Below, piece by piece: positions 17,482-60,544 of a stretch of 64,000 nucleotides of DNA. This DNA is from Rugalucina vietnamica (lineage: Eukaryota; Mollusca; Bivalvia; Lucinida; Lucinidae). The notes under the pieces were generated by a model. That model searched no databases. It was not told where the DNA came from and saw nothing but the letters and a program-made list of their open reading frames with translations. The stretch spans positions 24,871,456 through 24,935,455 of the forward strand of contig OZ024875.1 in NCBI GenBank assembly GCA_964017185.1, read 5' to 3'. Both the position numbers and the translations under genes were made by a program. The number at the start of each line of letters is the position of its first letter. Positions within the stretch are counted from its first letter, which is position 1.

Positions 17482-20429
17482 CTGAAACCAGTGAAGGGGC
17501 AAATCAGTGCATATGTTATGATAATTATGAATATAACACATATATCCAAAGAAAAACCAAGAATTGATAAAAGGCCTCATATAAATTTAAGGGTTGTTGA
17601 ATGGGAATACTGTCCCTGTCCATTTGGGCTGTAAGAAATGGGCTACTTGTGCCTTCATGAAAAGCTTATAAACTACTGACTGAGCCTGCCCAGCAAAAGT
17701 GGTTCAAGTCCAACCATCCATAAATACAAGCCTTTTTAGTTAACTTGGGTGGTTATATTTTCAAGCACATTTTTGGTGTCATGACATCTTTCACCTATTC
17801 CCACAACCAATTATATCACGGCCACCAATCCAGCTCTTTCATAGCAAAATGCAATGCTAATAAATTCATTTGTGGTACATCACACTATGCAGCTGCGGAG
17901 TTCGAAACATGTAAGCGACTTCATGTTCTCTTGTTTTATTATCATTCACTCCTGTTTTAAGACATCTTTCAAAAATCGGAGAATGACATGATGTGGGTAA
18001 TTTATCTAGCTTTTTTCACCTCCAGCCGATCTCTTGAAAACATAGCACATGGTTTGGAATCACTTTTGAAGTGAGTTTTTAGGTCGTATGCTAGATTTTC
18101 AACACAAGCACACTGCATAACTTTGTTTTCCAATTTATTTTGAAGATTTTATTTTGACTAATGATGAAGATTTGTGACCATAAACATTATTTGTATGCCT
18201 GTGATTGGAAAATAATCGATAATTGAAGCGGCGTGATAAGCGATGAAGAAAGAATACTAACTATGAAGAAAACTTGTAATACTGTGAGCAAGAGCAGTCC
18301 AGTTGATTGTAGTGTAATGAAATGCATTGGTCAGCCTTGTATTGTTAAGAGGCGTATTTAATAGCCTCCTCAGCTTATTCGGCAACTAAGCAAAGCTGGT
18401 AAATGTCTTTCTTGCTTTGAAAAAGTATGGAAATAGTTTAAGTATTCACTGCACATAATTAGACCACTTCACTTTCTCTAGCTCATTATCAATCACTCTT
18501 GCGCTTACATCAGGTCATTCAATCAGTTGTTGGATTTTAAATCTGACAACAGCACACTCTTTTTTTTTAACTTTTTATAATGTAGCAATGCTGGTTAATG
18601 TATGATAGTTCCATGTACAAGAAGAAATAAAATGATCATTTTCTGCCATGCATATAGCTCTTTTTTTCTTCCTCTAATAAGAAGCGAAGTACATATATAC
18701 AGTACATAAATATAAGTAAGCATACATATAAAAAAAATGCATGTAATACATAAATACATACTGTAAGACAAAATATGTTCTTGTAAAGGAAGAATCATGC
18801 TTTTTCAAAACAAGAAAGACATTTACCAGATTTGCTTAGTTGCTGTCGAAGCTGAGGAAGCTATTAAATACGCCTCTTGACGATACAGTGCTGATCAGCG
18901 TATTTTTTTTTTTATTTAGAATAAACATTAATTACATCATATACACTCCCGGTAAAAAAATAACAACATATTCCGCGTTTCTCCGCAACCATGGCAAACG
19001 CGAAATTTTTATTTCTCGGAGAAACACCGCGAAATAAGCCAGGTAGACGAAATCGTCTGCGCGAAATTTCGCGGTGTTTCTCGGTGAAATTTCTCGGTGT
19101 TTCTCCGAGAAAGGTAATTACCTGGATTTATCGATAAAACTCTTTTTCTCGGAGTTTCTCGGAGGAATTTAAAAGACAAATGCATGTTTATAATTTTTGA
19201 ATAAATATAAAACAATAAATTAAAAAAATAATATTTTAAGTATTTGCAAGTATGAAACTTGCAGATGTTACGTATTTGTTTAGATGGCTTATAATCCACA
19301 TAAATATATTCTTGATTACATTAAAATTTATGATGACCTTTGTCACTTGTGTTGCTTTTCACATCATCCATGGTTATTCGATCTTTGAACAGAAGAATGG
19401 AAGGGAAAAAATCATTTAAAAATCAAGGGCGTCATTAAAAATTCGCGCCTTGAGAATTGTCCTTTCCAACAAAGAATAAAATTACCACACTTCTAGTGAC
19501 TATGTGGATAATCAGAATTTCATTGAATGAATAAATAAGTTTAATGACATTTGATCAAAGGTATTTAATTATGTACAATAGCAATGATTTAACAGGCGGT
19601 TTACTTTAATTACTTTAATAAACACAAGTCATCAAAATAACATGAATATACCGGCTGGAGATCGAAATCGCAACTTTTTTTTTTCGAAGCGAACGCACTA
19701 TCTATACATGTAAAACCATCGCGGCCTGTCTTATTAAATGTTCGGACCTTACTTGTCCGCCAGCATTTCTTGGTAAGCTGTTAACGTAACCGTTATCAAA
19801 TATTCAGATTATGGTTCCATATAAATCGCAAATAATTTGAGCATTCGTACATGTACATGTACATGTATATATACTTGTATGTTTTAGATCGAGACTACAT
19901 GTATTAGAAAAGAATTTGCATCAAAAGTTATTCTCCATGAACAACCACAAAGCCGTTTAAATCATGAACTTATGGGATCGCCTAAATTGATGCCCTTTCA
20001 CCCGTAATGTTGCATGGTATTAACATACATAAATGGTCAACAAAATTTACAGAAATCACTGTTGACTGATTTGGCCAATTGGCAGAATTTGCAGCATTAC
20101 CAGGAAGTGTGTTTCGGCATACACAGTCATGTTCTTGTGTCACATTCTCTAATGAACACGAAGCTGACACTGCTCCTTCACCTGATAAGGAAGCTGTCTG
20201 TCGTAAAGTGAAATAAAAAGTCAAGCAAATAAAAATGCCGACCGTGCAGCCAACACTGTCATATGACTTACTCTCAATTGACGGCTAAATACATCACGTA
20301 GATATGAATGTACATGTCCATACATTGCTATTCACGCACATGCATTTGCATCATTAAAATCATTCTTGTTCAAACATTTTACATCAGGAAAACATTTCAT
20401 GTAAAATGTGTATCCCATCAAAAGCAAAA

Positions 20430-20575
20430 CTGGGGTATGCAGGGGTATATCTATTTTTTTTTTTTATCTTTTGCTCCAAAACATAAGATTGTGGGTACTA
20501 GTTTGAACCGCCTCGGTGAGGCGGTTATAACGTGTACCCACAATCTATGATTTGAGCATGAATAAGAAAAAGCAA
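20430..20575. repeat. Palindromic module inside transposon copy 1 (tip GGT)
   Basis: The palindrome centre is AACCGCCTC-GGT-GAGGCGGTT (20506-20526), within longer arms (GATTGTGGGTAC / GTACCCACAATC). In copy 2 the three-base tip is ACC. The module is the reverse complement of the one at 11.4-11.6 kb. Confidence 0.9.
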
Positions 20576-21651
20576 ACATTTTCTACTGACAATTTTCTTT
20601 TTTTTTTTTCATCTTTAAACAACTCGGTATATTGCATGGGCATGTTTTCGTAATTTTAAAGTTACGGTATATGAAATTGTTTCTTTAAAACATCATCGAC
20701 ACAAAAGGCAGCAACGCTTTTGGAAGGAGAGATCGGAAAACCTCATAAATACATTTACATGTTTGTTATACCTTGTGCAGAATTGCGGTTTGTATGGAAC
20801 ATTGTAAATGTACATGTATATACAGTCGAGAAATTTTAATGGTCTTAAATTTTTTATTTCGCTCCCTCTTTAAATCTGATTGATATTATTAGATGAAAAA
20901 TGCATTATGTGCAACAAATACTTTTGTATAGGATATGCCACACAGTGCATCAAAGTAAGTGGCTGAAATATACAAACTTTTCTTTACATGTACATGAATT
21001 TGGGACAATGTCGGTTATGATAGTATTTTTCTTTTATTTTTCTTTTACGTATGCACCATTATTTTGTCGTCATTTGTGTTACGACATCGAGATATAAATG
21101 TGGATGCATCAAACATACAAAACATACATACTCAAGTATCTGCAGTTCATAGCGTGTCGGATGCTGTTTCGGTAGTTTTTGTAAGTGAAGGGTTTACAAA
21201 TACGAATGTTGTGTAGCCCATTTCGAACGTCAGGACATCCCAAACTTGTACAGTACCATAAAGCGACGAAAACGTACCGACATAACCGTGGCTGAGGACA
21301 AGGACGTTAGTAACAGCAGTGATTTTTCTATTCATGCACATGCATATTAAAGTTTGTATACTTAGACGGTCCCGGTAATTTTTAAAACTGACACCAAAAT
21401 ATAAGGTCGTGTATTTGTTTTCGTGTAAAATGAGTGTATCCGTTCCTGCCTTCTACGGAAACATTAATAAAGGTTAAGTTTTAATGCGATTTAACGTGTA
21501 AATTTGATGTAAGATATCCATACGCCAGTTGAGCTGTGTGCTAGTCGAGCTGCACATGTTTTTCGGAAACGATCAGGATGTGCGATTTTTGGAACAAGTG
21601 CACTTATTAGATCGAATACGGTGAAAAATTCATATCTATACATCTTGATCA

Positions 21652-22076
21652 TGTAACGGGATAACTTTCCTTGGAAATATGCAAATTTCAAACTCGAGAC
21701 TTTGTGAATCGAGTAAGTGTTAGGTATATAGCGCAGTAAACCACCCTTGGTGGATGAGCATGCTTTTCCATCGACGGGGTTTGCTGTGGCTCGGCTCGGC
21801 CGCTCGTTACATTTGGTGGCAGCGGTGGGATGATGACAACCGCCAGACCGGGGTTGCCTTACCCATGTAGTCCCCAGGCCAAGACTCGGGGCGAGTCTTC
21901 TCGGAGGGGGAAGTAATGTAACGGGATAGCTTCCCTTGGAAATATGCAAATTTCAAACTCGAGACTTTGTGAATCGAGTAAGTGTTAGGTATATAGCGCA
22001 GTAAACCACCCTTGGTGGATGAGCATGCTTTTCCATCGACGGGGTTTGCTGTGGCTTGGCTCGGCTGTACGTTACA
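21652..22076 (+). mobile_element. TRIM retrotransposon (160-bp LTRs), in transposon copy 1
   Basis: Two direct 160-bp repeats, 21652-21811 and 21917-22076, begin TGTAACGGGAT and end GTTACA, with about six differences between them. Two bases after the first lies TGGTGGCAGCGGTGGGAT (21814-21831), which is complementary to the 3' end of an animal tRNA-Leu plus CCA, a primer binding site. A purine tract GGAGGGGGAAG (21903-21913) precedes the second LTR. The interior is 105 bp and non-coding. This is the complete plan of a terminal-repeat retrotransposon in miniature. After the 3' LTR comes an inverted 29-bp copy of the LTR end (22099-22127) instead of a clear target duplication. Confidence 0.85.
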
Positions 22077-22184
22077 TGTAACGTACAGCCACGTTACATG
22101 TAACGTACAGCCGAGCCAAGCCACAGCGTACAGAAATATCAGATTAAAGAAGTAGGGGGATTGTACTAGCCGAGTATTGAAAAC

Positions 22185-22240
22185 AAAGGCGCTGATCAGC
22201 TGTGCAGATACTGCACAGTTGATCTGCGCCTTTATTATCG
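22185..22240. repeat. Hairpin in transposon copy 1
   Basis: AAGGCGCTGATCAGCTGTGCAG faces CTGCACAGTTGATCTGCGCCTT with a few mismatches around a short loop; the same hairpin is in copy 2 at about 52086-52141. Confidence 0.8.
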
Positions 22241-23866
22241 CATGAGTATAAGTCCAGCGTTCTCATGACGCGGCTCATATAAAAGTGAGGTATACATTAC
22301 ATGGACATGTTATCATGATGTGTGTAAATATGTTGAGGAATACCCCATACAATGTATATGAGTTTAAAGCACATGAACATGTAAATGCGTTTGTTAATTT
22401 ACTCGATTAATTATCAATTAATTTATCAGTTATCAGTAATTGATAAATTCTCTTTACTTGTCATTTTCACCATGTATCATGCACTTTCCTATGCACTTGA
22501 CATTTCGGGCCGCACCTTGTAAAAACAACATGCCGCCAACACAAATTGTTCATGGCGGAGTTGTCGTTATGCATGGCAATAGGTTTTGCGTTTATGCATT
22601 TAGCAAGAAAAACAGATGCTTAAAAAAGAAAAGTGTATAAATTGTTTTCTCGTTATCCGCCTTATTCTTATGTGAAGATTTGGTCATAAATTTGGTATGA
22701 AAAAAGTGTTTATGCGAACAGTGCCCCTGATAAACGAGTGATTTAGAGGTATTGACAAAACTTTGTGCTAGTTAAATACTGTGTATCCTTATCATCGAGA
22801 ATGTTGTAATGCATATTCATATAGGAGTTAGGAGATCGCTGCAGGGTAATCGGGTCAATAAAATTTTACAAAAATAGCTTGCTCCATAAGCTGAAAATGT
22901 GATGAAATTATGCCATTTCATTCTACATGCACGTTTCCATAGCTTGACATACAACCAGAACCAGAAAACATTTATTTCATTACTATATGAATTCAAGAAT
23001 GCGAAAAATGGTTACCTAATTATACTCGTACATGTTTATGGACTATTGCTTTTATGTTTCCTAGCTCAAACAAATGAAACTACTTGGATAAAGACATAAT
23101 TGAGATGAAACAAAGTACTTTTTAATTTGTATGTCAAATGCGAGTCGAGTGCAAGACCGTAACGGAAACCAGTGAAGAAGGTTGTGGAATGTTTGCTCAG
23201 TAATTAATGTGCCTTATTAAAACGTGTCAAACTGTTAGAGGTGCCATATACAAAAACACTTATAAATACTGATCAGTTAAAGGTCTAAAACTTCTTTAAT
23301 TATTAAAAATTTGGTAAAATCGATTTTCACAATCGTGCACAATATTTCTCCGAGAAACACCGCGAACAGGTAAATCTGGACTTACCTGTTTTCACCGGTT
23401 AATACCTGCGGTCGCGGTGAAATTTCTCGGTGTTTCTCCGAGAAATCGAACTGAACGAAACGCGAAATATCTTAATGAAAAGAGAAATTTAGCGTTCTTT
23501 CTCCGAGAAAAATAGCTTAGGGTCCTCCGAGAAAAGAGGAATATGTTGTTGATTTTTTACCGGGACTGTACAAACATTGTTATGTGAGCAACATTAATAC
23601 ATTCTATTATATACAGTCTTATTCTATCTATGCATAGTGTCACTTATGAATTCTAAATTTTCTAAAAGAGAAAGAGTGAAGAAGACAGAGTGTAAGGCAA
23701 AGGGCCTTTATTAATTTAAAAAGTGTTGCAGGTTGTCATTCTATCGTGCGCTTCTAGTAGATAAAATAACGACTTATTTCTATTGTATTTGATACAACAT
23801 GTTTCAGTATTCATTTGATTATTACTCATTAACATATGAGAAAACACCTCGTATATCAGAATTAAT

Positions 23867-25528
23867 ACCAGAGGACCATTGGTCCTGAGAACGCTCACCT
23901 GAAGCCTGATCTTGGAGTATTAAGTCATTATGAAATGACCTTGACCTTGAATACTCACACACCTTTATTGACTTCACAAGTTGTCAGCATCTGCAAAGTT
24001 TCAGGTCTCAGGCTGCAATAGTTTCCAAACCCAGTGATTTCTGAGAAAACCATAATTTCAATTTTGATATTTAAATGACCTTGGGTCAAGGTCAACAAAT
24101 GACCTTGGCCTTCATTAATTACTTACCTTCATTGACTCCATTACTTGTCTGCATCTAGCAACTTTCAGGTCTCAGGCTGCAACAGTTTCCAAAATATCCA
24201 TTGTTTTCGCCTTTTCCCATGTAAAAGCCTATGTTTGACCTTGCCTTAAAATAGGTCAAGGTCATCCTAGGGTATCATTTCAACAAACTATGATGGGCTG
24301 GAGTCCCAAATGCTACATACCAAGTTTCACGTAAATCGGTTCTGGAGAAGAAGATTTTTGAGTGGTTTTTACCATAGTTGGGCATGGCGGCCATCTTCGT
24401 CATGTGACCCGAATTTCGCGATCACACTTTCGTTCCCCCTACCCATGGAGGCTCCACATATAATTTCACTTTGATTGGCCAAGCAGTTTCAGAGAAGAAG
24501 ATTTTTGAAAAGTGTGTATGGACGACAGACTGGCCAAGGTCAAGAGATGACCTTGACCTAAATTAATCACATACCTTCATCTACTCCATTGGTTGTTTGC
24601 ATCTACCACTTTTCAGGCCTCAGGCTGCAATAGTTTTCAAAAAATCCATAGTTTTCACTTTTTCCCATGTAAAAGCCTATGTTCCCAAAATTGACATTGC
24701 CATAAAATAGGTCAAGGTCATCCTATGGTCATCATTTGATCAAATTATGATGGGCTGGAGTCCCAAATGCTACATACCAAGTTTCATGAAAATCGGCCAG
24801 CCGGTTCTGGAGAAGGAGATTTTTGAGTGGTTTTTAACATATATGGGCGTGGCGGCCATCTTGGTCATGTGACCTGGATTTCGCAATCAAACTTTCGTCT
24901 CCCCTACCCATGGATGCTCCACATAAAATTTCACTTTGATTGGCCACGCAGTTTCAGAGAAGAAGATCTTTGAAAAGTGTGTATGGATGACAGACTGGCC
25001 AAGGTCAAGAGATGACCTTGACCTAAATTAATCATATACCTTCATCTACTCCATTAGTTGTTTGCATCTACCACTTTTCAGGCCTCAGGCTGCAATAGTT
25101 TTCAAAAAATCCATAGTTTTCACTTTTTCCCATGTAAAAGCCTATGTTTCCAAAATTGAAATTGCCGTAAAATAGGTCAAGGTCATCCAAAGGTCATCAT
25201 TTTATCAAACTATGATGGGCTGAAGTCCCCAATGCTACATACCAAGTTTCGTGGAAATCGGCCCACCGGTTCTGGAGAAGAAGATTTTTGAGCGGTTTTT
25301 ACCATATATGGGTGTGGCAGCCATCTTGGTCATGTGACCTGGATTTCGCGATCAAACTTGAAATGCCACTACCCAAGGAGGCTCCACATAAAATTTCAAC
25401 TAGATCGGCCAAGCGGTTTCAGAGAAGAAGATCTTTGAAATTGTGGACGACGGACGGACGACGGACGGACACCTGATCATGGCCATCCTATAAGCTAACC
25501 TTGTGAGCCTTCGGCTCAGGTGAGCTAA
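23867..25528 (+). repeat. Family A repeat, complete copy inside E1
   Basis: Starts ACCAGAGGACCATTGGTCCT, a 5' palindrome, and ends in the hairpin plus GGTGAGCTAA. It holds about three internal units, separated by GGCCAAGGTCAAGAGATGAC and a GACGGACG tract near the 3' end. No target duplication is evident. Confidence 0.9.
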
Positions 25529-26084
25529 AAATTCCAAACTGAACTTCCTGATCAGCGTATTTCGTTATATAGTACAATCAACTGGTCTGCTCTTCCTCAA
25601 AGCATAACAAGTTTTCTTCAAAGCTAGACCCCCTTCTTCATCGCTTATCACGCCACTTCATAGCATATCCATTATTTTCCAATTACAGATATATTAATAA
25701 TTTATGGTCACAAATTATTAGTCATAACAAAATGTTTGGAAGAAAATGGACGCATTGCATAAGTTGGAAAACAAAGTTATGCGGTGTGTTTGTGTTGAAA
25801 ATCTAGCACACAACCTAAAAACGCATGTGTTGCACTCACCTCAAAACATGCTATGTTTTTAGCAGATCGGCTGGAGATGAAAGAAGCTAGATAAATTATC
25901 CACATCATGTTATTCTCCAATTTTTGAAAGATGTCTTAAAATAGGAGTAATTTATAATAAAACAAGAGAACACGATGTCACTTACACGTTTTGAACCCCG
26001 CAGCTGCATAGTGTGAGGTACCGAAAATGAATTTATTATCATTGCATTTTGCTATGAAAGAGCTGGATTGGTGGCCGTGTATAT

Positions 26085-26650
26085 GAAGTACCCTTTTTAA
26101 TATGTGAAATTTATGAATGCAATGTGAACTTGAAGGAAGCCAGAACAATTTCACCTCCTTTCTGTTTCACTGCCAGTTGTCAAAAGGGACAATCTTTGAG
26201 AAAAGAAATAATTTTGAGCTGTTTTATGGTTTCCCATACTGAGCCACAACATTAAAACATTCATCACCATTGCCTCTCTTAACATTTGTATGGGTGCATA
26301 TTCTTGTTACATTATTTTGAATCAATCCAACCTTTGGCTAATATTAATGTTGTGGGGGTGGCATTAAACGGATTTAATAGGATTTTTTAAAAACATAATG
26401 GACAATTAATCTTGCAACCCACAAATCTATGAACAGATCGATTGGTAAACAGTTCAATATAAGCCTTGTCACAGGAAAATTTTGTACATGTCATTCAGGT
26501 TTCCATCCAATCAATCTGCTTATCCAGGTATACTTTCAACCTGAGGTTTCAAACAAACTGTGTGCTGAGTATGGTATTGAAGAGTGCTGATGGTATACTG
26601 ATGTGGCCTATATAAAGAAGACATAATGTATCTGAAAGCTCTAGTATAAT
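26085..26650. other. Intronic sequence without recognisable feature
   Basis: Lies between E1 and the 26.66 kb foldback; no repeat partner or exon seen. Confidence 0.4.
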
Positions 26651-26654
26651 ATTA

Positions 26655-27430
26655 TAGGGTTACTGCACTGATATGGGTGAATATTGTCCCGAGTTGGGAT
26701 ATCTAAGGACGCGAGCTTGCGAGTGGTCATAGATATCCCAACGAGGGACAATATTCAATGATATCAGTGCAATAACCCTTTTATTATATAGCTATAAAAT
26801 ATTTACTTCTCATTTTTATATTTTTGTTGATTGTTAATATTAAAAAAATGCTGTCATCCTGTAATATTATCTCTTTCGCAGCTTTGAATTACTTCAAGGA
26901 AATGAACTTTATAAGCCATAGGCTTTCATTCTGATCCTAATTTATACTGTATGTATTTATATGTGTTGCTTATTTGCTTGAGTTCAAAGTAGACTAGTTT
27001 AAACCAAAAAAAATGAAAATTTAATGGGAAGGCAGCCACAATATCCATGAGTGATATCATTTTTGCACAAGTGCAATATCAAATGATATCATTTTTGCAC
27101 TGTTACTATTCTGAAGCATATTTTGCAATAAAATCATTTATATATCCGACATTTAATTTCTTCTTTTGACTTTAATTACTTAAATCTGCAAGTGTCACAC
27201 TTCAGTTGACATTTCATTCCGCTATGATGTCATTTTACGCGTGACGTCAGATAAAGATGACGTCATCAGAGTTGATGTCCCAAATTTACAACTTTCAACA
27301 ATGGCTGCATAATGTCAAGTAAAAAAATTGTCAATTCTTTACAGAAAGATTTTTTCACTTTTAACAAAGTGTGCAATATCATGAAAGTGTGCCGATATTG
27401 TCTGATATCTGCACACTTGTTACTCGGCTT
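26655..27430. mobile_element. Candidate foldback element with TGCACTGATATC motifs
   Basis: A strong hairpin at 26660-26780 pairs GAATATTGTCCCGAGTTGGG and GATATCTA with their complements. Diverged ends GGTTACTGCACTGATAT (left) and, inverted, GAGTAACAAGTGTGCAGATA (right) suggest terminal repeats. Variants of GCACTGATATC recur at 26664, 26758, 27070, 27090 and 27395. No target duplication was established. Confidence 0.5.
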
Positions 27431-27604
27431 TTATCACTATGTTTTAATCATTTGATATTTATAGCTACATGTATATAATAAATATATTTATCATATGTTT
27501 ACTATAAAATATGTTCTTTTTGCATATGCGATACAGACAAGAGTTACATTCACGTATCGCGGCACAGTATCTCGAAAGCCGTATCCGTTCAAAAATTGAT
27601 AAAA

Positions 27605-27690
27605 CCCATATCACTCCCTTGGGAGAAAAAGCCATATCACCAAATGATTGGCTCACATACCCATGTGACCCATATCATCCCTAGGGAGAA
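27605..27690. repeat. Local tandem duplication that reveals an empty site
   Basis: A unit (CCCATATCA.TCCCT.GGGAGA, AAAGCC.TATCACCAAATG, ATTGGCT) occurs intact at about 27606-27654. It occurs again split by a family A copy: its left half at 27669-27689 and its right half at 29181-29208. Confidence 0.75.
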
Positions 27691-29180
27691 CCAGAGGACC
27701 AATGGTCCTGTAAACGCTCACCTGAGATCTGCTACATATGCCAATAAACATGTTTGAATATTATGGTATTTAGCCCCAGTGCAGGGGCAGATGAAGCCCT
27801 TGGTCCATTTTTTTTTCAGAATAATCAATATTCTGTCCAACTGCCAATTTCTATTTTATATATTCCCTTCAAATGACATGTTAACAGTTTTCCCCATTCA
27901 AATGCATTGGCAACCTATGTTGACCTTGTCGTCAAATAGGTCAAGGTCACCACAGGGTCATGATTTATATACACATTGTAGTACTTTAACCATCAATGCT
28001 TCATGCCAAGTTTCTTTGAAATCAGTCCACTGGTTTCTCCGAAGAAGATTTTTGAAGGGTTTTTACCATATATGGGCATGGCGGCCATCTTGGTCATATG
28101 ACCTAGATTATTTATATACACATTGGTTACCCCATCCTATAGATGCTTCACATAAAATTTGGCTTTGATTGGCCAAGTGGTTTCAGAGGAGAAGATGTTT
28201 GAATATTATGGAAATAAACATGTATACTGCCACAGGGTGGGGGCACATGAGCTCCTGGGGACCAATCTTTTTCAGAATCATTAATATTCAGTCCTACTGT
28301 GCATTTCCTGCAAGATTTTCACTTTAAATGACATTTCAAAAGTTTTCCCCATTCAAATGCATTGGCGACCTATGTTGACCTTGCCGTAAAATAGGTCAAG
28401 GTCATCACAGGGTCATGATTTATATATACATTGTAGTACTTGAGTCATTTATACTTCATGCCAAGTTTCGGTCGACCGGTTCCTGAGAAGAAGATTTTTG
28501 AAGGGTTTTTACCATATATGGGCATGGCGGCCATCTTGGTCATGTGACCTGGATTATTTATATACACATTGATTACCCCATCCTATAGATGCTTCATATA
28601 AAATTTGGCTTTGATTGGCCAAGCGGTTTCAGAGAAGAAGATGTTTGAATATTATGGAGATATATTGCCCCGGGGTGGGGGCATATGAGCCCCTGGGGTC
28701 CATTTTTTTCAGAATCATATATATTCAGTCCTACTGCCCATTTCCTGCAAGACTTTCACTTTAAATGACATTTTAAAAATTTTCCCCATTCAAATGCATT
28801 GGCAACCTATGTTGACCTTGCCATAAAATAGGTCAAGGTCATCACAGGGTCATGATTTATATATACATTGTGGACCTTGAGTCCCTTATGCTACATGCCA
28901 AATTTCAAGATCCTAGGCCTTTGGGTTCTGGAGAAGAAGATTTTTAAAGGTTTTTACCATATATGGGCATGGCAGCCATCTTGGTCATGTGACCTGGATT
29001 ATTTATATACACATTAGTTCCCCATTCTTATAGATGCTTCATACAAAATTTGGCTTTGATTGGCCAAGTGGTTTCAGAGGAAAAGATCTTTGAAATTGGT
29101 GGACGACGATGACGGACGGACGCCAGATCATGGCCATCCTATAAGCTCACCTTGTGAGCCTTACGGCTCAGGTGAGCTAA
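27690..29180 (+). repeat. Family A repeat, complete copy with visible empty site
   Basis: Runs from ACCAGAGGACCAATGG to CAGGTGAGCTAA. Because the target is a tandem duplication, the uninterrupted site (GGGAGAAAAAGCC) can be read beside it. It indicates insertion into an A-run with no obvious target duplication. Confidence 0.9.
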
Positions 29181-29404: not shown

Positions 29405-29425
29405 GAATAAATAAAATAAAACAAA

Positions 29426-29494
<69 letters not shown>

Positions 29495-30475: not shown

Positions 30476-30479
30476 GGGT

Positions 30480-46639: not shown

Positions 46640-46649
46640 TTAAACATTA

Positions 46650-48078: not shown

Positions 48079-48777
48079 ATTATCACGGGTGGTAAAGTTT
48101 GGAACGACCTCCAAAAAGAGGTAGTGAATTTCTGTTCCAATCACACATCCGAGAACTCGCAAGGTTGGTCCTAAGGCTAGAAACGGATAAACAAAGGTAG
48201 GTGTCGCTGTTTCTTTTGATTGTTTCTAAGTTTCTAGCGAAAAATGGATAATTATGGCAATGCTATGTCGTGTAAAGATGACTTCTCGATGCATAGGGCC
48301 CAAAGCTGCGGTTGAAACCGAAATAATTTCCGCTGGGTCGTTTTTAAAAGTCGAACACGATGTTGCTTTTTCACAACAGTTTGTCGACAACTGACACCTT
48401 TTTGCAAAATTTGTGGTTTTCCACGAAGAATACAGCCCTGGTACGCTCGCCCTGGGGAAACGAGCACTCTGCATTACATATCCTGTTAAAAATGGCAACG
48501 GGGCGCATTATTTAAACAAATGATTGAGAAAATTCCAGTAGAGGTCGTTCCAATAAGTTGGAGCTTGTTCCAATTTGAATGAGATCATTCCCAGTGCTCT
48601 CCTGTTTTATACAATGAAATTAATATCTGTGATATCAGACCAGCCAAACTCAGACAAAAATGGGCGGTTGACATTTATTGAATCCGGATAAACATTGTGT
48701 CACCAACATGGCAGGCATATCCCCGGATCGGGTAAAGCTGGCAAGCCGCATAGGCTTAAATTGACGATCCAGAATTT

Positions 48778-48791
48778 TATAATTCTATTGT
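48778..48791. repeat. Target-site duplication of the Penelope remnant, left
   Basis: TATAATTCTATTGT, identical to 54354-54367; it fixes both ends of the truncated element. Confidence 0.8.
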
Positions 48792-48845
48792 CATAAATAA
48801 ATATTGGGATTTGTTGCAACTTTCACAGAAAGGTAGCGTTAAGTA

Positions 48846-51800
48846 CACTCCCGGTAAAAAAATAACAACATATTCCGCGTTTCTCCGCAACCATGGCAAA
48901 CGCGAAATTTTTATTTCTCGGAGAAACACCGCGAAATAAGCCAGGTAGACGAAATCGTCTGCGCGAAATTTCGCGGTGTTTCTCGGTGAAATTTCTTGGT
49001 GTTTCTCCGAGAAAGGTAATTACCTGGATTTATCGATAAAACTCTTTTTCTCGGAGTTTCTCGGAGGAATTTAAAAGACAAATGCATGTTTATAATTTTT
49101 GAATAAATATAAAACAATAAATTAAAAAAATAATATTTTAAGTATTTGCAAGTATGAAACTTGCAGATGTTACGTATTTGTTTAGATGGCTTATAATCCA
49201 CATAAATATATTCTTGATTACATTAAAATTTATGATGACCTTTGTCACTTGTGTTGCTTTTCACATCATCCATGGTTATTCGATCTTTGAACAGAAGAAT
49301 GGAAGGGAAAAAATCATTTAAAAATCAAGGGCGTCATTAAAAATTCGCGCCTTGAGAATTGTCCTTTCCAACAAAGAATAAAATTACCACACTTCTAGTG
49401 ACTATGTGGATAATCAGAATTTCATTGAATGAATAAATAAGTTTAATGACATTTGATCAAAGGTATTTTATTATGTACAATAGCAATGATTTAACAGGCG
49501 GTTTACTTTAATTACTTTAATAAACACAAGTCATCAAAATAACATGAATATACCGGCTGGAGATCGAAATCGCAACTTTTTTTTTTCGAAGCGAACGCAC
49601 TATCTATACATGTAAAACCATCGCGGCCTGTCTTATTAAATGTTCGGACCTTACTTGTCCGCCAGCATTTCTTGGTAAGCTGTTAACGTAACCGTTATCA
49701 AATATTCAGATTATGGTTCCATATAAATCGCAAATAATTTGAGCATTCGTACATGTACATGTACATGTATATATACTTGTATGTTTTAGATCGAGACTAC
49801 ATGTATTAGAAAAGAATTTGCATCAAAAGTTATTCTCCATGAACAACCACAAAGCCGTTTAAATCATGAACTTATGGGATCGCCTAAATTGATGCCCTTT
49901 CACCCGTAATGTTGCATGGTATTAACATACATAAATGGTCAACAAAATTTACAGAAATCACTGTTGACTGATTTGGCCAATTGGCAGAATTTGCAGCATT
50001 ACCAGGAAGTGTGTTTCGGCATACACAGTCATGTTCTTGTGTCACATTCTCTAATGAACACGAAGCTGACACTGCTCCTTCACCTGATAAGGAAGCTGTC
50101 TGTCGTAAAGTGAAATAAAAAGTCAAGCAAATAAAAATGCCGACCGTGCAGCCAACACTGTCATATGACTTACTCTCAATTGACGGCTAAATACATCACG
50201 TAGATATGAATGTACATGTCCATACATTGCTATTCACGCACATGCATTTGCATCATTAAAATCATTCTTGTTCAAACATTTTACATCAGGAAAACATTTC
50301 ATGTAAAATGTGTATCCCATCAAAAGCAAAACTGGGGTATGCAGGGGTATATCTATTTTTTTTTTTATCTTTTGCTCCAAAACATAAGATTGTGGGTACT
50401 AGTTTGAACCGCCTCACCGAGGCGGTTATAACGTGTACCCACAATCTATGATTTGAGCATGAATAAGAAAAAGCAAACATTTTCTACTGACAATTTTCTT
50501 TTTTTTTTTTCATCTTTAAACAACTCGGTATATTGCATGGGCATGTTTTCGTAATTTTAAAGTTACGGTATATGAAATTGTTTCTTTAAAACATCATCGA
50601 CACAAAAGGCAGCAACGCTTTTGGAAGGAGAGATCGGAAAACCTCATAAATACATTTACATGTTTGTTATACCTTGTGCAGAATTGCGGTTTGTATGGAA
50701 CATTGTAAATGTACATGTATATACAGTCGAGAAATTTTAATGGTCTTAAATTTTTTATTTCGCTCCCTCTTTAAATCTGATTGATATTATTAGATGAAAA
50801 ATGCATTATGTGCAACAAATACTTTTGTATAGGATATGCCACACAGTGCATCAAAGTAAGTGGCTGAAATATACAAACTTTTCTTTACATGTACATGAAT
50901 TTGGGACAATGTCGGTTATGATAGTATTTTTCTTTTATTTTTCTTTTACGTATGCACCATTATTTTGTCGTCATTTGTGTTACGACATCGAGATATAAAT
51001 GTGGATGCATCAAACATACAAAACATACATACTCAAGTATCTGCAGTTCATAGCGTGTCGGATGCTGTTTCGGTAGTTTTTGTAAGTGAAGGGTTTACAA
51101 ATACGAATGTTGTGTAGCCCATTTCGAACGTCAGGACATCCCAAACTTGTACAGTACCATAAAGCGACGAAAACGTACCGACATAACCGTGGCTGAGGAC
51201 AAGGACGTTAGTAACAGCAGTGATTTTTCTATTCATGCACATGCATATTAAAGTTTGTATACTTAGACGGTCCCGGTAATTTTTAAAACTGACACCAAAA
51301 TATAAGGTCGTGTATTTGTTTTCGTGTAAAATGAGTGTATCCGTTCCTGCCTTCTACGGAAACATTAATAAAGGTTAAGTTTTAATGCGATTTAACGTGT
51401 AAATTTGATGTAAGATATCCATACGCCAGTTGAGCTGTGTGCTAGTCGAGCTGCACATGTTTTTCGGAAACGATCAGGATGTGCGATTTTTGGAACAAGT
51501 GCACTTATTAGATCGAATACGGTGAAAAATTCATATCTATACATCTTGATCATGTAACGGGATAACTTTCCTTGGAAATATGCAAATTTCAAACTCGAGA
51601 CTTTGTGAATCGAGTAAGTGTTAGGTATATAGCGCAGTAAACCACCCTTGGTGGATGAGCATGCTTTTCCATCGACGGGGTTTGCTGTGGCTCGGCTCGG
51701 CCGCTCGTTACATTTGGTGGCAGCGGTGGGATGATGACAACCGCCAGACCGGGGTTGCCTTACCCATGTAGTCCCCAGGCCAAGACTCGGGGCGAGTCTT

Positions 51801-53469
51801 CTCGGAGGGGGAAGTAATGTAACGGGATAGCTTCCCTTGGAAATATGCAAATTTCAAACTCGAGACTTTGTGAATCGAGTAAGTGTTAGGTATATAGCGC
51901 AGTAAACCACCCTTGGTGGATGAGCATGCTTTTCCATCGACGGGGTTTGCTGTGGCTTGGCTCGGCTGTACGTTACATGTAACGTACAGCCACGTTACAT
52001 GTAACGTACAGCCGAGCCAAGCCACAGCGTACAGAAATATCAGATTAAAGAAGTAGGGGGATTGTACTAGCCGAGTATTGAAAACAAAGGCGCTGATCAG
52101 CTGTGCAGATACTGCACAGTTGATCTGCGCCTTTATTATCGCATGAGTATAAGTCCAGCGTTCTCATGACGCGGCTCATATAAAAGTGAGGTATACATTA
52201 CATGGACATGTTATCATGATGTGTGTAAATATGTTGAGGAATACCCCATACAATGTATATGAGTTTAAAGCACATGAACATGTAAATGCGTTTGTTAATT
52301 TACTCGATTAATTATCAATTAATTTATCAGTTATCAGTAATTGATAAATTCTCTTTACTTGTCATTTTCACCATGTATCATGCACTTTCCTATGCACTTG
52401 ACATTTCGGGCCGCACCTTGTAAAAACAACATGCCGCCAACACAAATTGTTCATGGCGGAGTTGTCGTTATGCATGGCAATAGGTTTTGCGTTTATGCAT
52501 TTAGCAAGAAAAACAGATGCTTAAAAAAGAAAAGTGTATAAATTGTTTTCTCGTTATCCGCCTTATTCTTATGTGAAGATTTGGTCATAAATTTGGTATG
52601 AAAAAAGTGTTTATGCGAACAGTGCCCCTGATAAACGAGTGATTTAGAGGTATTGACAAAACTTTGTGCTAGTTAAATACTGTGTATCCTTATCATCGAG
52701 AATGTTGTAATGCATATTCATATAGGAGTTAGGAGATCGCTGCAGGGTAATCGGGTCAATAAAATTTTACAAAAATAGCTTGCTCCATAAGCTGAAAATG
52801 TGATGAAATTATGCCATTTCATTCTACATGCACGTTTCCATAGCTTGACATACAACCAGAACCAGAAAACATTTATTTCATTACTATATGAATTCAAGAA
52901 TGCGAAAAATGGTTACCTAATTATACTCGTACATGTTTATGGACTATTGCTTTTATGTTTCCTAGCTCAAACAAATGAAACTACTTGGATAAAGACATAA
53001 TTGAGATGAAACAAAGTACTTTTTAATTTGTATGTCAAATGCGAGTCGAGTGCAAGACCGTAACGGAAACCAGTGAAGAAGGTTGTGGAATGTTTGCTCA
53101 GTAATTAATGTGCCTTATTAAAACGTGTCAAACTGTTAGAGGTGCCATATACAAAAACACTTATAAATACTGATCAGTTAAAGGTCTAAAACTTCTTTAA
53201 TTATTAAAAATTTGGTAAAATCGATTTTCACAATCGTGCACAATATTTCTCCGAGAAACACCGCGAACAGGTAAATCTGGACTTACCTGTTTTCACCGGT
53301 TAATACCTGCGGTCGCGGTGAAATTTCTCGGTGTTTCTCCGAGAAATCGAACTGAACGAAACGCGAAATATCTTAATGAAAAGAGAAATTTAGCGTTCTT
53401 TCTCCGAGAAAAATAGCTTAGGGTCCTCCGAGAAAAGAGGAATATGTTGTTGATTTTTTACCGGGACTG
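48846..53469. mobile_element. 4624-bp Tc1-like non-autonomous transposon, copy 2
   Basis: Same termini as copy 1 and TA duplications (48844-48845, 53470-53471). It is inserted in the Penelope reading frame, which reads through when the element and one TA are removed. Differences from copy 1 noticed: one T fewer in a T-run near 50360, C to T near 48996, A to T near 49469, and the three central bases of the palindrome at 50416-50418. The nested TRIM and hairpins are shared, so they predate the spread. Confidence 0.9.
51553..51977 (+). mobile_element. TRIM retrotransposon in transposon copy 2
   Basis: Same structure as 21652-22076: LTRs 51553-51712 and 51818-51977, primer site 51715-51732. It was carried along inside the transposon rather than inserted independently. 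Confidence 0.85.
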
Positions 53470-54260
53470 TATGTGCACGAGTATAAGCCTATTTTGGCTT
53501 TTAAAAGACCAAAAAATTTGTGTGATTTTCTAGTACATTCTTCTTTTAAGGATAAAGAAAGTCATTTTTCTCAGTCATGCGACAGACGTAGATGCTCCCA
53601 TTGTAAGAATATAATCCACATGGATGTTTTTACTAGCAATTGTACTCAGAACACGTTCAACTTACGATTTTCAACTGACTGTACGTCTCAGAATGTTATT
53701 TATCTGATTGAATGTAAACGTTGTAACATGCAATATGTTGGTCAAACTAACCAAAAAGTTTCCAAACGCATGAATAGTCATAGATTTGACATAAATAATT
53801 ATGATTGTGAAAGCTATGCATCAAACGTTGCTTTACATTTCAATTCAGATTCACATTCTATCGCAGATTTCAGTTTCCTTCCAATTGATGTTGTTAACGA
53901 TGAAATCTGACTCGCCTGTGTAAATAAACTTATTGGATACATAAGCTTGATACACTGTACCCAAAAGGCATGAATTCCAAATCGTTGTACAATGTTGAGT
54001 AGCAGTTAGGCAGCTATTGTTTGTTCCTATTATTACTTTTTTGTGTAAAGACTTTATAGGAACATTTGTATCAAACGATCCAATAGTTTTGTCTCTATAA
54101 GATTTTTAATTTTTGCTTAACTGCTGCGTTCACAATTATGGGGCTGTTTTTGTCACATTGTATATTTTTTTCACTAGTTTCTCACAACGTATCTGACGTG
54201 GCGCGCTGTCACACATTGCGTTTTACGGTGCGCGACGTCATATACTTGTTTACTATATCC

Positions 54261-54290
54261 CTGAAGAAGCCAAGATGGCGAAACGTTGGA
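54261..54290 (+). ncRNA. Hammerhead-like motif near the Penelope 3' end
   Basis: CTGAAGA, a short stem GCC-AAGAT-GGC and GAAAC match the hammerhead core order, and Penelope-like elements are known to carry hammerhead ribozymes. An extra A before the stem and no clear stem III / cleavage site argue that it is a decayed or only similar motif. Confidence 0.35.
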
Positions 54291-54353
54291 TAAAGTGATA
54301 AATGTAATTAAAACTGGACTTAAGTTCGTGTTGGTGTTGTTTCATTTATTAAC

Positions 54354-54367
54354 TATAATTCTATTGT
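54354..54367. repeat. Target-site duplication of the Penelope remnant, right
   Basis: TATAATTCTATTGT, identical to 48778-48791. Confidence 0.8.
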
Positions 54368-54654
54368 ATAATTTGCCAATGATGATTGATAAGTAGCAAA
54401 TGTTACATAGAAAAGTATTTGTATGAAACAAGATTTATCAAATTTTGCTTATAGTGACTTTTTTCTGTGTTTTAATTGTCCATTTTTGCCTTTTTTTTAC
54501 ATTCGTGTTGTGAAAAAAAAAACAGCAAAATAGTCAATAAAAGCAAATTTTTGATAATTTTGTTTAATGCAAATACTTTTCTGTGTTACAATTGCTCCTT
54601 CTCTGAGTCCTCATTGACAAAGTACATAATAGAATAAAAAAAATCATCTGGCCT

Positions 54655-54755
54655 GGGTCCTCAATTTCAGCTAATTTCAGCTCGCTGGCTTGCCAGCTGT
54701 GCCAGTCATACCCGACCATATCCCAGCCGGGGATCGAACTCGTAGCCTCTCATAG
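54655..54755 (-). repeat. Possible tRNA-derived SINE fragment
   Basis: On the minus strand GAGTTCGATCCCCGGC fits a Pol III B box. Adjacent sequence (CTGGCACAGCTGGC) is compatible with a SINE body. No A box or tail is clear. Confidence 0.35.
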
Positions 54756-55087
54756 TCCACTTGGACTGATTGAATATTTGATGCAATATCGTTCCAAATA
54801 TGACATTGTGTGCAGTGTTTTCTTATATAGAAATGAAATTGTAGACTACACTCCTGTTTGGTACTTCTTATTTTTATTTGTTTTATTTTATTTTACTAGA
54901 CATCTCACATTGAGATGATGCGTTATGAAAATGATTCATTCATGTTTCTTAAACTCTACGCTTGGGTCCCTTGAATTGAATTTTTGTATATTTCAGATGG
55001 GTTTTTGTTGGAGTGTATGTGTAGCTATTTCACTTTTGTTTAGTATACGAAACAGTAAGAGCGAAACAATTTACGACACGAAAACCC

Positions 55088-56413
55088 CACGGGGACCCAA
55101 CTGTTAATCGTGATTATTGATGCGACGTGGAATGTTAATGCATGCTAATATGAAGTTTCGTATGCGTCGGCGATATTGTTACGAATGCGACGTTCCACAT
55201 CCTCTGCCCTTGAACGGTAAGTAGCACATGTTTTGTTCTTGCGAAAATAAACGAAACCGAGTTTACAAAATCGGCGTCCACTTTGATCTGCAAAATTCTT
55301 CTATGTTCCCACTTGAGTATTATTACTTGCAGAGGCTGGAGAAAGTTGTTTGAGCCCGAGGCAGAGGGTTCAAAGTGCCCCCGAAGACTCTTCTAATGTT
55401 AATGTAATGAAATAACCATTGTTGATCGCTGTTTTTGTATAACACACCATTCCAATAGAAAACTGCCTCACAACCGCACCTAAAAACCGCATAAATCCCT
55501 TTAATTCTGTTGTTTTTCTCCCTGCTTATCAGAAATGCAGGGAGCCACCCATATTCAATGATAAAAAATTATTTGATTTCGCCTTAGAATAATTCATTTA
55601 ATGTAGGAAACATATAAGCTCTGTCACTGATATGTCCGAAAATGATTTGCTGTTTCGAGGCAAGAATAAATCAGATGTGTCACTCGAACGTTGACAAAGC
55701 TGAATCAGAAACCCCACTCTGTGACCTCATTCAAAATAAAAGCGGTATATGCTTTGAAGCTTGCTCAACAAAGTGCATGTAGTCCCAGGAAAAAACGCCA
55801 TGCAATATTTCGCTTGATAAAGGCACTCGTAATGCTTCTGCATGTACATAAATAACTTCTGAAAGAGCACAACAAAAATGCTAATTCTTCCATGACTCAT
55901 TCTAGTAGTGCGTACCTTCGTCTTCGATGCATACAAAAGGTGCTTATCTTACTGTTTTTCAAGCTCAGTAAATAAATGTGCATTTACAAAGCCGTTTGGA
56001 TACAAATTTCAATAAAGACACCCACAGGACTGTGTTACACGTCTTAGTTTACGACCAAGACAAAGAAAAACAAAAGGACTTTAAGAAAGTAATTAGTTTC
56101 CGTGGCAAAATTGTATCTACATGTCAACTTTATAAACCATTAGCTGAAAAACACAAGTGCCGTAAATATTGCAATTGACTTCAAGTGGGAACATAGAAAA
56201 ATTTTGCAGATCATAGTGGACGCCGATTTTGCAAACTCGGCTTTGCTTATTTTCACGAGAGCAAAGCATGTGCTACTTACGGTCCAAGGGCAGAGGATGT
56301 GGAACGTCGCATTCGTCACACGATCTCGCCGACGCATACGAAACTTCATAATAGCATGCATTAACATTCCACGTCAATAATCAATAATCACGATTAACAG
56401 TTGGGTCCCTGTG
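55088..56413. mobile_element. Long-TIR element E3 (1326 bp), 5-bp TSD AACCC
   Basis: Arms of about 235 bp (55088-55320, about 56175-56413) start CACGGGGACCCAACTGTTAA and CACAGGGACCCAACTGTTAA. Duplications AACCC lie at 55083-55087 and 56414-56418. The ~850 bp centre has no recognisable protein. It is inserted in E2. Confidence 0.85.
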
Positions 56414-57484
56414 AACCCGACAAAGCAAGAATCGCATGTACTGTCTTTGCAATAGTTTTCTGACGCTTCTTTTTTTTTCAAAATCACCATTTCCTGAAAT
56501 ACATCAAGAAAAATATGATCGTGTCACAATCCTTTTGCATTCCAAAAGTCTTAAAAAGAGCAACAAGACATGAAAATCGGTTTACACATGAAAGTAGGAA
56601 TAAGAAACTATCTGAAGATCTGCAAAGAACAATTCAAGTTTAAATCACAAGCCCGAAACCGCTTACAAACGGTCATTAGCAAGCTATCAGTCGTAGGAGA
56701 ATCGCTTTCAAACCCCAAAATATTACAATATTTCAAACGCCATCATTTTTGTCTGAGTTTGGCTCAGATCGATAACACAGATATTAATTTCATTGTATAA
56801 AACAGGAGAGCACTAAGAACGATCTCATTCAAATTGGAACAATCTCCAACTTATTGGAACGACCTCTACTGGAATTTTCTCAATCATTTGTTTAAATAAT
56901 GCGCCGGGTGGCCATTTTTAACAGGATATGTAATACAGAGTACTCGTTTTCCCAGGGCGAGCGTACCGGGGCTGTATTCTTCGTGGAAAACCACAAATTT
57001 TGCAAAAAGATGTCAGTTGTTGACAAACTGCTGTGAAATGCAACATCGTGTTCGACCTTTTAAAAACGACCCAGCGGAAATTATTTCGGTTTCAATCGCA
57101 GTTTTGGGCCCTATGCAGCGAGAAGTCATCTTTACACAACATAGCATTGCCATAATTATCCATTTTTCACTAAAAACTTAGAAACAATTCAAAAGAACCA
57201 CCGACACCTACCTTTGTTTATCCGTTGCTAACCTTTGGACCAACCTCGCAAGTTCCCGGATGTGCGATTGGAACAGAAATTCACTACCGCTTTTTGGAGG
57301 TCGTTCCAAACTTTACCACCCGTGATTATACATGTGTTAACCTTTCGCCAGAAAAAAGCTTCAGCACTGCATTTTTATGGACTTCACAAATACCACACAC
57401 TAGACATTTTATTAAACACATGCACTTTTTCCTGCACACACCGCAAAATGTGATATTTTTTAAGACATATAAACAAAACATAAG

Positions 57485-57515
57485 AAGTGACATGAAAAAA
57501 AAAAAAAAAAAAAAT
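57485..57515. repeat. Poly-A tract
   Basis: About 20 consecutive A just outside the right end of E2. Confidence 0.9.
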
Positions 57516-57603
57516 ATTTGAAGAAAACAAACAAAAAAGCGCAGTTAATCAGCCTTGGTATTTCACTTCTCTTAGGTAATGATGGGCATTGAAAAATTTA
57601 ACC

Positions 57604-57745
57604 TTTGGTGACTAGTGTGTGTGTTCTTGTCCCGTATGGAGCGCACGTGAGACGAGCCAAGTTCAGCTTGCTGGTGTGCCAGATGGCTATTCTCTCCCCA
57701 CCTGTTGGTCTGTCTCACTTGCACTTGAAGGTGGTGACAATTTAA
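57604..57745 (+). repeat. Diverged SINE-like segment
   Basis: GAGCCAAGTTCAGCTTGCTG and GTGTGCCAGATGG follow the body of the SINE at 44012-44246. Confidence 0.4.
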
Positions 57746-58119
57746 AAATAGAATTATCAGAGAATCTGACTATAGCAACGCTTCTGAGCTTTTTTCCAGG
57801 GTGAGAAAAACAATGACGGGTAAAACACTGGGTGCTTCCTTCGTCCCGATATAAAAAGGTTTTGTTTGACTTTTACTATAGGTCCCGATAGGATTTGGTT
57901 TTGTTTGAATCTGGTATCAGATTTTTTTCTACAATAATTCCTAGAATTTGGTCAATGATTTGATTTGATTCTCATTTATGACGTCATTGAAAGAATTTCA
58001 AGTCATATAAGAGCTGTCGCAGGACAGCGTGCTCGACTGCTTTTGACCTTTGTCAAACATAAGGCCAAACTCGACCAGTAACCCAAAGCATTATGCTCAT
58101 ACATCTTTTTGCCTTGATG

Positions 58120-59300
58120 CAATAAGGCAAAATCACTGAACCATGAAAGTTAACTATAACTACCTAAGATTTAAAGGTCTCACTTTTATTGTGAAAGAAG
58201 TGTGTTCATATACCAACTGAGTGCCAAGAAACAAGGCAAAATCACTGAACCGTGAAAAAAGGTCACACTGACCTATAAGTATTGCAGGGTCAAAGGTCTA
58301 GTGATACTTACTCATAATGTGAAAGAAAAATGATCATATACCCATTCAGTGTTGAGATATAAAGCAAAATCACTGAACCATGAAATTAGGTCATAGTGAC
58401 CTATAAGTATGTTTGGGTTAAAGGTGTGGTCATACTCATTCATAATCAGAAAGAAGTATGAAAAAATACCAACTGAGTGTCAAGATATAAGGCAAAATCA
58501 CTGAACCATGAAATTAGGTCTCAGTGACCCAGGAATACTTTACGGTCAAAGGTCTTGTCATACTCATACATATCATGAAAGAAGTATGTTCATATACCAA
58601 TTGAGTGCCAAGATATAAAGAAAAATCACTGAACCGTGAAATTAGGTCATATTGACCTAGGACTACCTTAGGGTCAAAGGTCTTGTCATATGCAAACATA
58701 GCGTGAAAGAAGTTTGTTCATAAACCACTTGAGTGCTGAGATATAAGGCAAAGTCACTGAACCGTGAAATTAGGTCACAGTGACCTATAAGTATATTGGG
58801 GTCAAAGGTCTGGTCAACTCACTCATAATCTGAAAAAAGTATGAAAATATACTAAGCGAGTGTCAAGATATAAGGCAAAAATCACTGAACCGTGAAATTA
58901 GGTCACAGTGACCTACGACTACTTCAGGGTCAAAGGTCTTGTCATACGCAAACATACTTTGAAAGAAGTTTGTTCATAAACCATTTGAGTACCGAGATAT
59001 AAGGCAAAATCACTAAACCATGAAATTAGGTCACAGTGACCTATAAGTATACTGCGGTCAAAGTTCTAGTCATACTGACTCATAATCTGAAAAAAGTATG
59101 AAAATATACTAATTGGGTGTCAAGATATAATTCAAAATCACTGAACCGTGAAATTAGGTCACAGTGACCTATAAGTATATTGGGGTCAAAGGCCTGGTGG
59201 TACTAACTCATAATCTGAAAGAAGTAAGAAAATATACTAATTGAGTGTCAAGATATAAGGCAAAATCACTGAACCATGGAAAGTAGGTCAACTGACCCTT
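58120..59300 (+). repeat. ~128-bp tandem array, ~10 units
   Basis: Units with GGCAAAATCACTGAACC, GAAATTAGGTCACAGTGACC and GGGTCAAAGGTCT recur at about 58127, 58235, 58361, 58491, 58620, 58747, 58874, 59002, 59132 and 59261. The palindrome GGTCACAGTGACC recurs through the array. Confidence 0.9.
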
Positions 59301-59403
59301 ACCGTCATGACACACAAGTCAGTGTCACAAAGTCAAAAGATGAATGACCAACCATCCTCCTAAGTTGTTTCTATTAAGAAATAAAAAGAAAAAAAAATTC
59401 GGG

Positions 59404-60075
59404 GAGTTCTAGATTTTGACCTCTAGCCCCGCCCCCCTGACTCCGACCCAGAGGTCCGATGTCATGGAACCTAAAGTGTATGAAGTATGAATGCTTTATG
59501 ATAAGTTGTTGTCAAGATATGCCTCCTTGTAAAAGTTACACAGCAGTACATCTATTTTTTAGTGTTCTAGTTTTTAACCTCCAGCTCCACCCCCCAGGCA
59601 TGGACCCAGGGGCCCGATGCCATGGAATGAAACTCAACCCTACAGGGTACCTATGGTCCGAGTATGAAAGCCCTCTGATAAAAAGTTTTCAAGAAATAGA
59701 CTTCTAGAATACTATATCACAGAAAAGCCATTGTTATTAATGGTGTTCTAGATTTTAACCTCTAGCCCCACCCCCTGGCATGGACCCAGGGATCTGATGC
59801 CATGGAATGAAAGCCGACCCTACAGGGTGTCAATGGCCCAAGTATCAATGCTTTCTGATGAGTGGTTGTCAAGATATGGACTTCTAGAAAACTTTAACAC
59901 AAGAATTGCCATTTTTGAAGGTGTTCTAGATTTTAACCTCCAGCCCCACCCCCTGGCCTGGACCCAGGGACCCGATGCCATGGAATGAAAGCTAACCATA
60001 CAGGGTATCTATGGTCCAAGTATGAATGCTTTCTGATATGTGGTTGTCAAGATATGGACTTCTAGAAAACTTTAA
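59404..60075 (+). repeat. ~175-bp tandem array, four units
   Basis: Units begin TTCTAGATTTTAACCTCYAG and include CCCACCCCCTGGC, GATGCCATGGAATGAAA and TTGTCAAGATATGGACTTCT. Confidence 0.9.
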
Positions 60076-60544
60076 CGCAAGTGTGACGAGCACGCGCACA
60101 CGCACGGGAACGGGAACGTGGACAACCGGGGTGACTGCAATAGCTCTATGCACTTCATGCAGTTGAGCTAAAAATAGAGCTTTGAATGCAATTTTATAAT
60201 AAGTTTTAATTTGATTCGTTAAGAAGTGATATAAATTGTGAAATTAATGTTATTGTCGACTCTGTTTTGTGGAGATTCTCTCTGTTAACGTAGTAGAAAA
60301 AACCCGGTACCAAAATGTCAAACAAAACCTTTTTATATCGGGACCAAGGAAGCACCCAATGTAAAAATCCCAAGCTAGATCTTTTCAATGTTGATGTGGC
60401 CTCCCCGACATTTCATCGAAAATTACATTTGTCGAAAATGTCCCCATGCCCAGACCTTTACCCTAACCCTAGTGGTTGGTGGCTCAAAATGTGCACCTAT
60501 AGGCTAGTCTTCTACAGAATAAATCTCAAAATTTTGCGGTGAAT

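Follow-up and report, generated by a model that had tools for sequence, protein, structure and literature searches.

Four inverted-repeat insertions in the window

The DNA analysed here (the window) is a 64,000-nucleotide stretch of contig OZ024875.1 (positions 24,871,456 to 24,935,455) of the lucinid bivalve Rugalucina vietnamica. It carries four insertions, designated E1 to E4, that have terminal inverted repeats (TIRs) and are flanked by target-site duplications (TSDs) of 5 bp. A first-pass annotation had placed these insertions, with their inverted ends and exact 5-bp duplications, and these placements were borne out at base level. The features are as follows (no strand is assigned here or below unless given):

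17812..26084: E1 with TSDs, TATAT at 17812-17816 and 26080-26084
17817-26079: E1 without TSDs; TIRs at about 17817-18334 and 25548-26079
48079..57329: E2 with TSDs (ATTAT); element 48084-57324
48084-48674 and 56730-57324: TIRs of E2, about 93% identical
55083..56418: E3 with TSDs (AACCC); element 55088-56413, nested in E2
57821..60366: E4 with TSDs (TAAAA); element 57826-60361

The end sequences are CACGGGTGGT for E2, CACGGGGACC for E3 and CACTGGGTGC for E4. When the arms of each element were aligned by BLAST, they measured about 520-540 bp in E1 (80% alike), 600 bp in E2 (93%), 230 bp in E3 (91%) and about 50 bp in E4 (94%), and no clear arm similarity was detected between the families (best cross-family E about 0.004). 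The ends had been described as CAC or CAT; CAC is found at E1 to E4, whereas CAT is confined to one end of the window copy of E4, where it looks like a point change, because all 100 listed genomic E4 ends begin with CAC in a search that also admitted CAT.

The window copies of E1-E4 contain no recognised transposase. Of the 41 rows listed for inverted repeats with duplications in the window, four are E1-E4; the remaining rows, in which satellite-type arrays are mostly paired with one another, were discarded on visual inspection. A scan of TIR-like 16-mers within the window did not on its own show 5-bp duplications to be enriched (7 of 2066 pairs, compared with 12 in a shifted control); the case rests on the genome copies. 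An Rfam scan gave no match, nor did the E1 arm against plasmids or E3 against phages; in viral contigs the E1 end gave 3 matches of 18 bases, none extending, and the ends of E2, E3 and E4 gave 0.

Genome-wide copies and target sites

The genome around the window comprises 1.09 Gb in 47 contigs. The exact 20-mer end of E1 occurs 209 times in it, the exact 25-mer end of E3 834 times and the exact end of E4 669 times, and the control patterns (reversed for E1 and E3) occur 0 times; since the ends recur across the genome in this way, the element boundaries are real. For E2, 40 of 392 first-look candidates were scored. CAC forms the first three bases at 34 of 37 E1 ends, 9 of 9 E2 ends and 46 of 46 E3 ends. 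The usual lengths are 1,630-1,702 bp for E1, 1,713-1,735 or 780-783 bp for E3 (the fuller form being 1713 bp with 489-bp TIRs) and about 381 bp for E4, and E2 measures 2.3-2.8 kb in four pairs, as read from their positions.

The loci inspected were the best-scoring or first-listed copies and not a random sample. Both ends were read in 72 distinct copies, E1, E2 and E3 of the window being counted among these; the duplication is 5 bp in 53, 6 bp in 10 and 4 bp in 2, and 7 have no exact duplication. By family, 5 bp is found in 17 of 25 distinct E1 copies, 6 bp in 4 and none in 4; E2 has 5 bp in 4/4; the 19 E3 copies have 5 bp in 16 and 6 bp, 4 bp and none in one each; and the 24 E4 copies have 5 bp in 16, 6 bp in 5, 4 bp in one and none in 2. 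The exact 5-bp duplication seen in the window thus predominates genome-wide, but some copies have 6 bp, 4 bp or none. Excluded from this tally are the E1 pair L098/L099, one end of which could not be placed, and the one-ended E1 loci L043, L044 and L048. Also outside the 72 are L111, L113, L114, L115 and L117, with duplications of 5, 5, 5, 4 and 5 bp, the sequence of L115 stopping 4 bases past the element. The E4 table holds 91 of the 100 listed rows; left out are 4 rows from two repeats of one already counted site, 1 row that adjoins an E1 copy and 4 unpaired rows.

The four families also have a target preference in common. The base immediately outside the 5-bp duplication is C at 16/37 ends of E1, 6/9 of E2, 18/39 of E3 and 38/91 of E4, compared with a background of 18.6% (one-sided p of 5e-4, 2e-3, 8e-5 and 3e-7, respectively, with the caveat that neither the two ends of a copy nor copies nested together are independent of each other). 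Among 48 5-bp sites, to which E3 contributed 11 of its 16, the left side has C in 23 and G in 6, and the right side has G in 27 and C in 6. Because C favours the left side and G the right side, the target is a weak palindrome, C/AWWWT/G, where slashes delimit the duplicated bases. With both sides pooled, the share of C is 0.62 in E1, 0.50 in E2, 0.36 in E3 (the weakest) and 0.53 in E4, and the preference for C/NNNNN/G is common to all four.

A full-length E1 copy encloses a hAT transposase

A coding element with matching ends was sought genome-wide and was found for E1. A genome search for the hAT dimerisation domain (PF05699), in which 150 of 199 candidates were scored, yielded 116 places, compared with three RAG1-family places. 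One of the hAT matches belongs to a 711-aa frame at C4:20544735, and an E1 end (C4:20548689-20548708) is situated 3.8 kb away. This locus (L117) contains a complete E1-family element of 6,130 bp at position 380-6509 (C4:20542579-20548708), which has TIRs of about 600 bp (88.6% alike) and a TTAAG duplication at both sides. Its transposase frame is located between the TIRs:

2416-4548 of L117, minus strand: transposase frame, 711 aa

The frame matches Dimer_Tnp_hAT (PF05699) at 2e-07, above the cut-off, and DUF4371 at 1.8e-04, below it; further blocks, recognised by eye, are presumably hAT-like as well. Positions 1-702 of the canonical E1 match the left flank of the coding element and positions 747-1693 match the right flank, with the transposase frame between them. 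The usual 1.69-kb E1 therefore looks like an internal deletion derivative of the 6.13-kb element, in that it equals the flanks of the latter minus the transposase region. The coding and non-coding copies have the same ends and TSD length, and no second long TIR pair was seen around the hAT gene. Since the full-length copy encloses a hAT transposase frame between its own ends, the E1 family is of the hAT type, with duplications of 5 bp.

Other long E1 copies (L062, L063, C9 3252-9697 and the C1 copy in L044, which was read in part) contain other repeats or an element resembling a long interspersed nuclear element (LINE), as judged by eye except for one open reading frame (ORF) of L062, which gave no Pfam match. 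L043 is a single E1 end adjoining a LINE-like element. A search for E1 ends followed by a different subterminal sequence gave 0 places in the genome. As a separate observation, the E1 copy at C9:37043000-37053000 (L065, L047) has what by eye is a LINE-like element with long open frames between its ends, which show no exact duplication.

E1 resembles an internally deleted miniature inverted-repeat transposable element (MITE) in that its many 1.69-kb copies correspond to the flanks of a 6.13-kb element, whereas the arms form much of E1-E3. E1-E3 are also longer than typical MITEs. A hAT group with 5-bp duplications, hAT5, has been described (Kapitonov & Jurka 2007, as cited in PMC12730594). Like hAT5 as defined in the excerpt of PMC12730594, E1 combines a hAT transposase with 5-bp duplications. 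By duplication length, E1 thus belongs to an already described kind, of which it is a new member; as far as that excerpt goes, long TIRs and the 6-bp duplications of the E families (10/72) may or may not be typical of hAT5.

Affiliation of E2-E4

Based on the results presented above, E2-E4 are probably of the same kind as E1, because they have the same duplication length, CAC tips and C/5 bp/G target preference. We therefore regard E1-E4, with a probability of about three in four, as four non-autonomous hAT families that make 5-bp and sometimes 6-bp duplications, E1-E3 being long-TIR families. A transposase supplied in trans would cut E1 at its CAC ends and join them to the target with a stagger of 5-6 bp, preferably at C/AWWWT/G, and a related hAT transposase of its own would move each of E2-E4.

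Several points weigh against this assignment. The transposase-bearing E1 is a single case, and the attribution of the hAT gene to E1 itself rests on the flanks and on the lack of a second TIR pair. A second frame of L117, just upstream of the transposase, has no Pfam match. The usual hAT ends are CAG, not CAC, and TIRs of 500-600 bp are unusual for hAT elements. A 5/6-bp mix within one family was not found described in the literature excerpts consulted. Finally, no coding partner of E2, E3 or E4 was found among the copies read, and the E3 copies that are long or variant (L066-L069 and L111-L116) yielded no recognisable transposase, 7 of their ORFs having been scanned with Pfam and the others judged by eye.

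Among these E3 copies, L066 contains, by eye, a Penelope-like element, and L067 and L069 have no ORF of 110 aa. L068 (C1:93008270-93015945) measures 7.66 kb and has a 5-bp TSD, and about 6 kb of its interior is foreign to the usual 1.7-kb form; three ORFs scanned there gave no Pfam match, and the interior is possibly captured or nested DNA. E3 ends followed by a different subterminal sequence occur at 12 places, six of which were read (L111-L116). L111, L112, L114 and L115 carry differing inserts at one TAA site about 20 bp from one E3 end (with CAA at the inner side of the insert in L114), and L113 is an internal deletion of E3. Since the outer 18-21 bp are kept in L111, L112, L114 and L115, and L111 and L114 have 5-bp duplications, the E3 tip alone may suffice for mobilisation.

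Alternative explanations

One alternative is that each family derives from a different superfamily, E1 being hAT, and that short duplications at CAC ends arose by chance. The arms have no clear sequence in common, TIR lengths range from 50 to about 600 bp, and coding partners were found for E1 only, all of which this explanation would accommodate. It is nevertheless unlikely, given that the main duplication is 5 bp in all four families, that 6 bp recurs in E1, E3 and E4, and that the same C/5 bp/G preference is seen throughout; related elements tend to have such features in common (PMC3276498, in the excerpt available).

The first-pass annotation had proposed that a single source enzyme with a 5-bp staggered cut made all four insertions. 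That a transposase cuts at CAC ends with a stagger of mostly 5 bp is supported, and the target preference is common to the families. A single enzyme for all four is uncertain, as the arms have no clear similarity across families. It is unlikely that a single hAT lineage, with a stagger flexible between 5 and 6 bp and a C/AWWWT/G target, moves four or more families. If true, end recognition would be very relaxed, as the families have only the CAC(G/T)GG tip in common, and the long family-specific arms would serve something other than transposase binding.

It had also been suggested that the CAC termini link the elements to Transib and RAG-like (RAGL) transposons. The E elements are like these in their CAC ends, mostly 5-bp duplications and C...G target flank; in Drosophila, Transib elements have a 7-bp target motif, CCANTGG, in which C...G flanks the duplicated bases (PMC3276498, excerpt), and the present genome has a RAG1-like/RAG2-like pair. 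However, the transposase inside the full-length E1 copy is hAT and not of the RAG1/Transib type, which refutes the link for E1. For E2-E4 it is unsupported, their tips being unlike the RAGL consensus: against the protostome consensus CACTWMCAAACKTYKBB (PMC7204232, excerpt), the tips of E1-E4 score 9, 6, 9 and 9 of 17, whereas 780 CAC 17-mers of the window average 8.9. The duplication is also less constant, being 6 bp in 10 of 72 copies (though in no E2 copy of the 4 read), compared with 5 bp at 532/533 sites of the Drosophila Transib element hopper (PMC3276498, excerpt), and the target core is AT-rich instead of CANTG. A genome search for RAG1 (PF12940) gave three places, one at L110 and two on C11, although this vertebrate-like model may miss a divergent Transib, and an excerpted mollusc survey counts one Transib among 14,275 DDE/D elements (PMC10294476). 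A Transib or RAG-like transposase as the common source of all four families is thus very unlikely.

The RAG-like pair itself (L110, C9:34093000-34102400) is a convergent RAG1-like/RAG2-like arrangement with open frames, and such pairs have been reported in bivalves (PMC7204232, excerpt). The RAG1-like frame of 782 aa has RING and RAG1 domains (1.6e-81), and an upstream frame has the RAG1 importin-binding domain; the convergent RAG2-like frame of 501 aa has kelch repeats and a sub-threshold PHD match. Within these 9.4 kb, none of the four 10-base E tips, no recognisable RAGL TIRs and no CAC-ended TIRs with 5-bp duplications were found. The pair is flanked by 70-bp inverted repeats that do not start with CAC and that by eye resemble a palindromic repeat of the window at 20458-20571.

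An internal stagger of 17 nt is a feature of the P-element transposase. A P-element-like enzyme of this kind, considered because E3 variant arms break 17-21 bp from the end, is extremely improbable: the breaks do lie about there in L111-L115, but those of L111, L112, L114 and L115 read as insertions at one site and that of L113 is a deletion, no solo paired-E3-tip footprints occur (0 exact 13+13-base matches with at most 9 bases between), and P-superfamily duplications are 7-8 bp in Drosophila (PMC3276498, excerpt).

Nested insertions in the window copies

The bodies of the four elements had been considered unrelated. This did not hold, as E1 and E2 carry one and the same 4.6-kb element and the bodies consist mostly of nested insertions, which explain why E1 and E2 reach 8-9 kb:

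18906..25552: insert in E1, about 6.6 kb; direct repeat TGATCAGCGTATTT at both sides, T-run at left end
18942..23570: 4.6-kb element, E1 copy; inverted ends CACTCCCGG/CAGTCCCGG, TA duplications
23867..25532: tandem-repeat (satellite-bearing) element in E1; further copies elsewhere in the window
48778..54367, plus strand: 5'-truncated Penelope-like retroelement in E2, with GIY-YIG domain (PF01541)
48778-48791 and 54354-54367: 14-bp repeat TATAATTCTATTGT flanking the Penelope-like element
48844..53471: 4.6-kb element, E2 copy, TA-flanked

Only 17817-18905 and 25553-26079 of the window E1 are in common with the canonical 1693-bp genomic copy; the match stops at 18905 and restarts at 25553, and about 6.6 kb is therefore an insert. 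Its direct repeat TGATCAGCGTATTT and left-end T-run indicate that it is probably a retroposed insertion, itself invaded later. The two copies of the 4.6-kb element are 99.87% identical to each other and contain no long open frame; from their sequences, this near-identical pair is attributable to recent transposition. As this element combines a CAC end with a 2-bp duplication, CAC alone is not diagnostic. In E2, the 4.6-kb element interrupts the GIY-YIG retroelement, which we take to be Penelope-like and whose frame, read by eye, is continuous across the TA target. The later invaders of the window copies would thus comprise a TA-target DNA element, a Penelope-like element and satellite-bearing elements. 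In E4, since the genomic form is about 381 bp, most of the window copy is a tandem-repeat insert, at about 58015-60175 (boundaries approximate).

The nesting of E3 in E2 means that the four insertions are not independent in position. An identical 8-base left E3 flank is found at five loci (L012 and L014-L017, the window copy being one of these), and at three further loci (L013, L018, L026) the flank matches from its first base on; in L014 the right E3 flank differs and no duplication was seen. At five places in the genome (C2, C7, C9, C13, C15), an E2 end and an E3 end are about 1-1.5 kb apart. Because of these common E3 flanks and neighbouring ends, E2 with E3 inside has very probably been copied as one unit.

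Two further inverted-repeat elements are located in the window, one enclosing the other:

297-5667: inverted-repeat element, tips TAGTCCGGCACGAA, in satellite-type repeat; duplication apparently CAA; encloses the next
2499-4094: long-arm inverted-repeat element (518-nt arms, 91%); if the duplication is TA, the tip reads CAGGTGCGTTCA

Implications

The combination of CAC ends with 5-bp duplications can mislead to RAG or Transib when only non-autonomous copies are visible; it is the coding copy that decides. The present finding adds to the hAT families an abundant one from an animal genome, with long arms and duplications mostly of 5 bp, and the element at C4:20542579-20548708 provides a concrete coding element for testing the stagger and the target preference.

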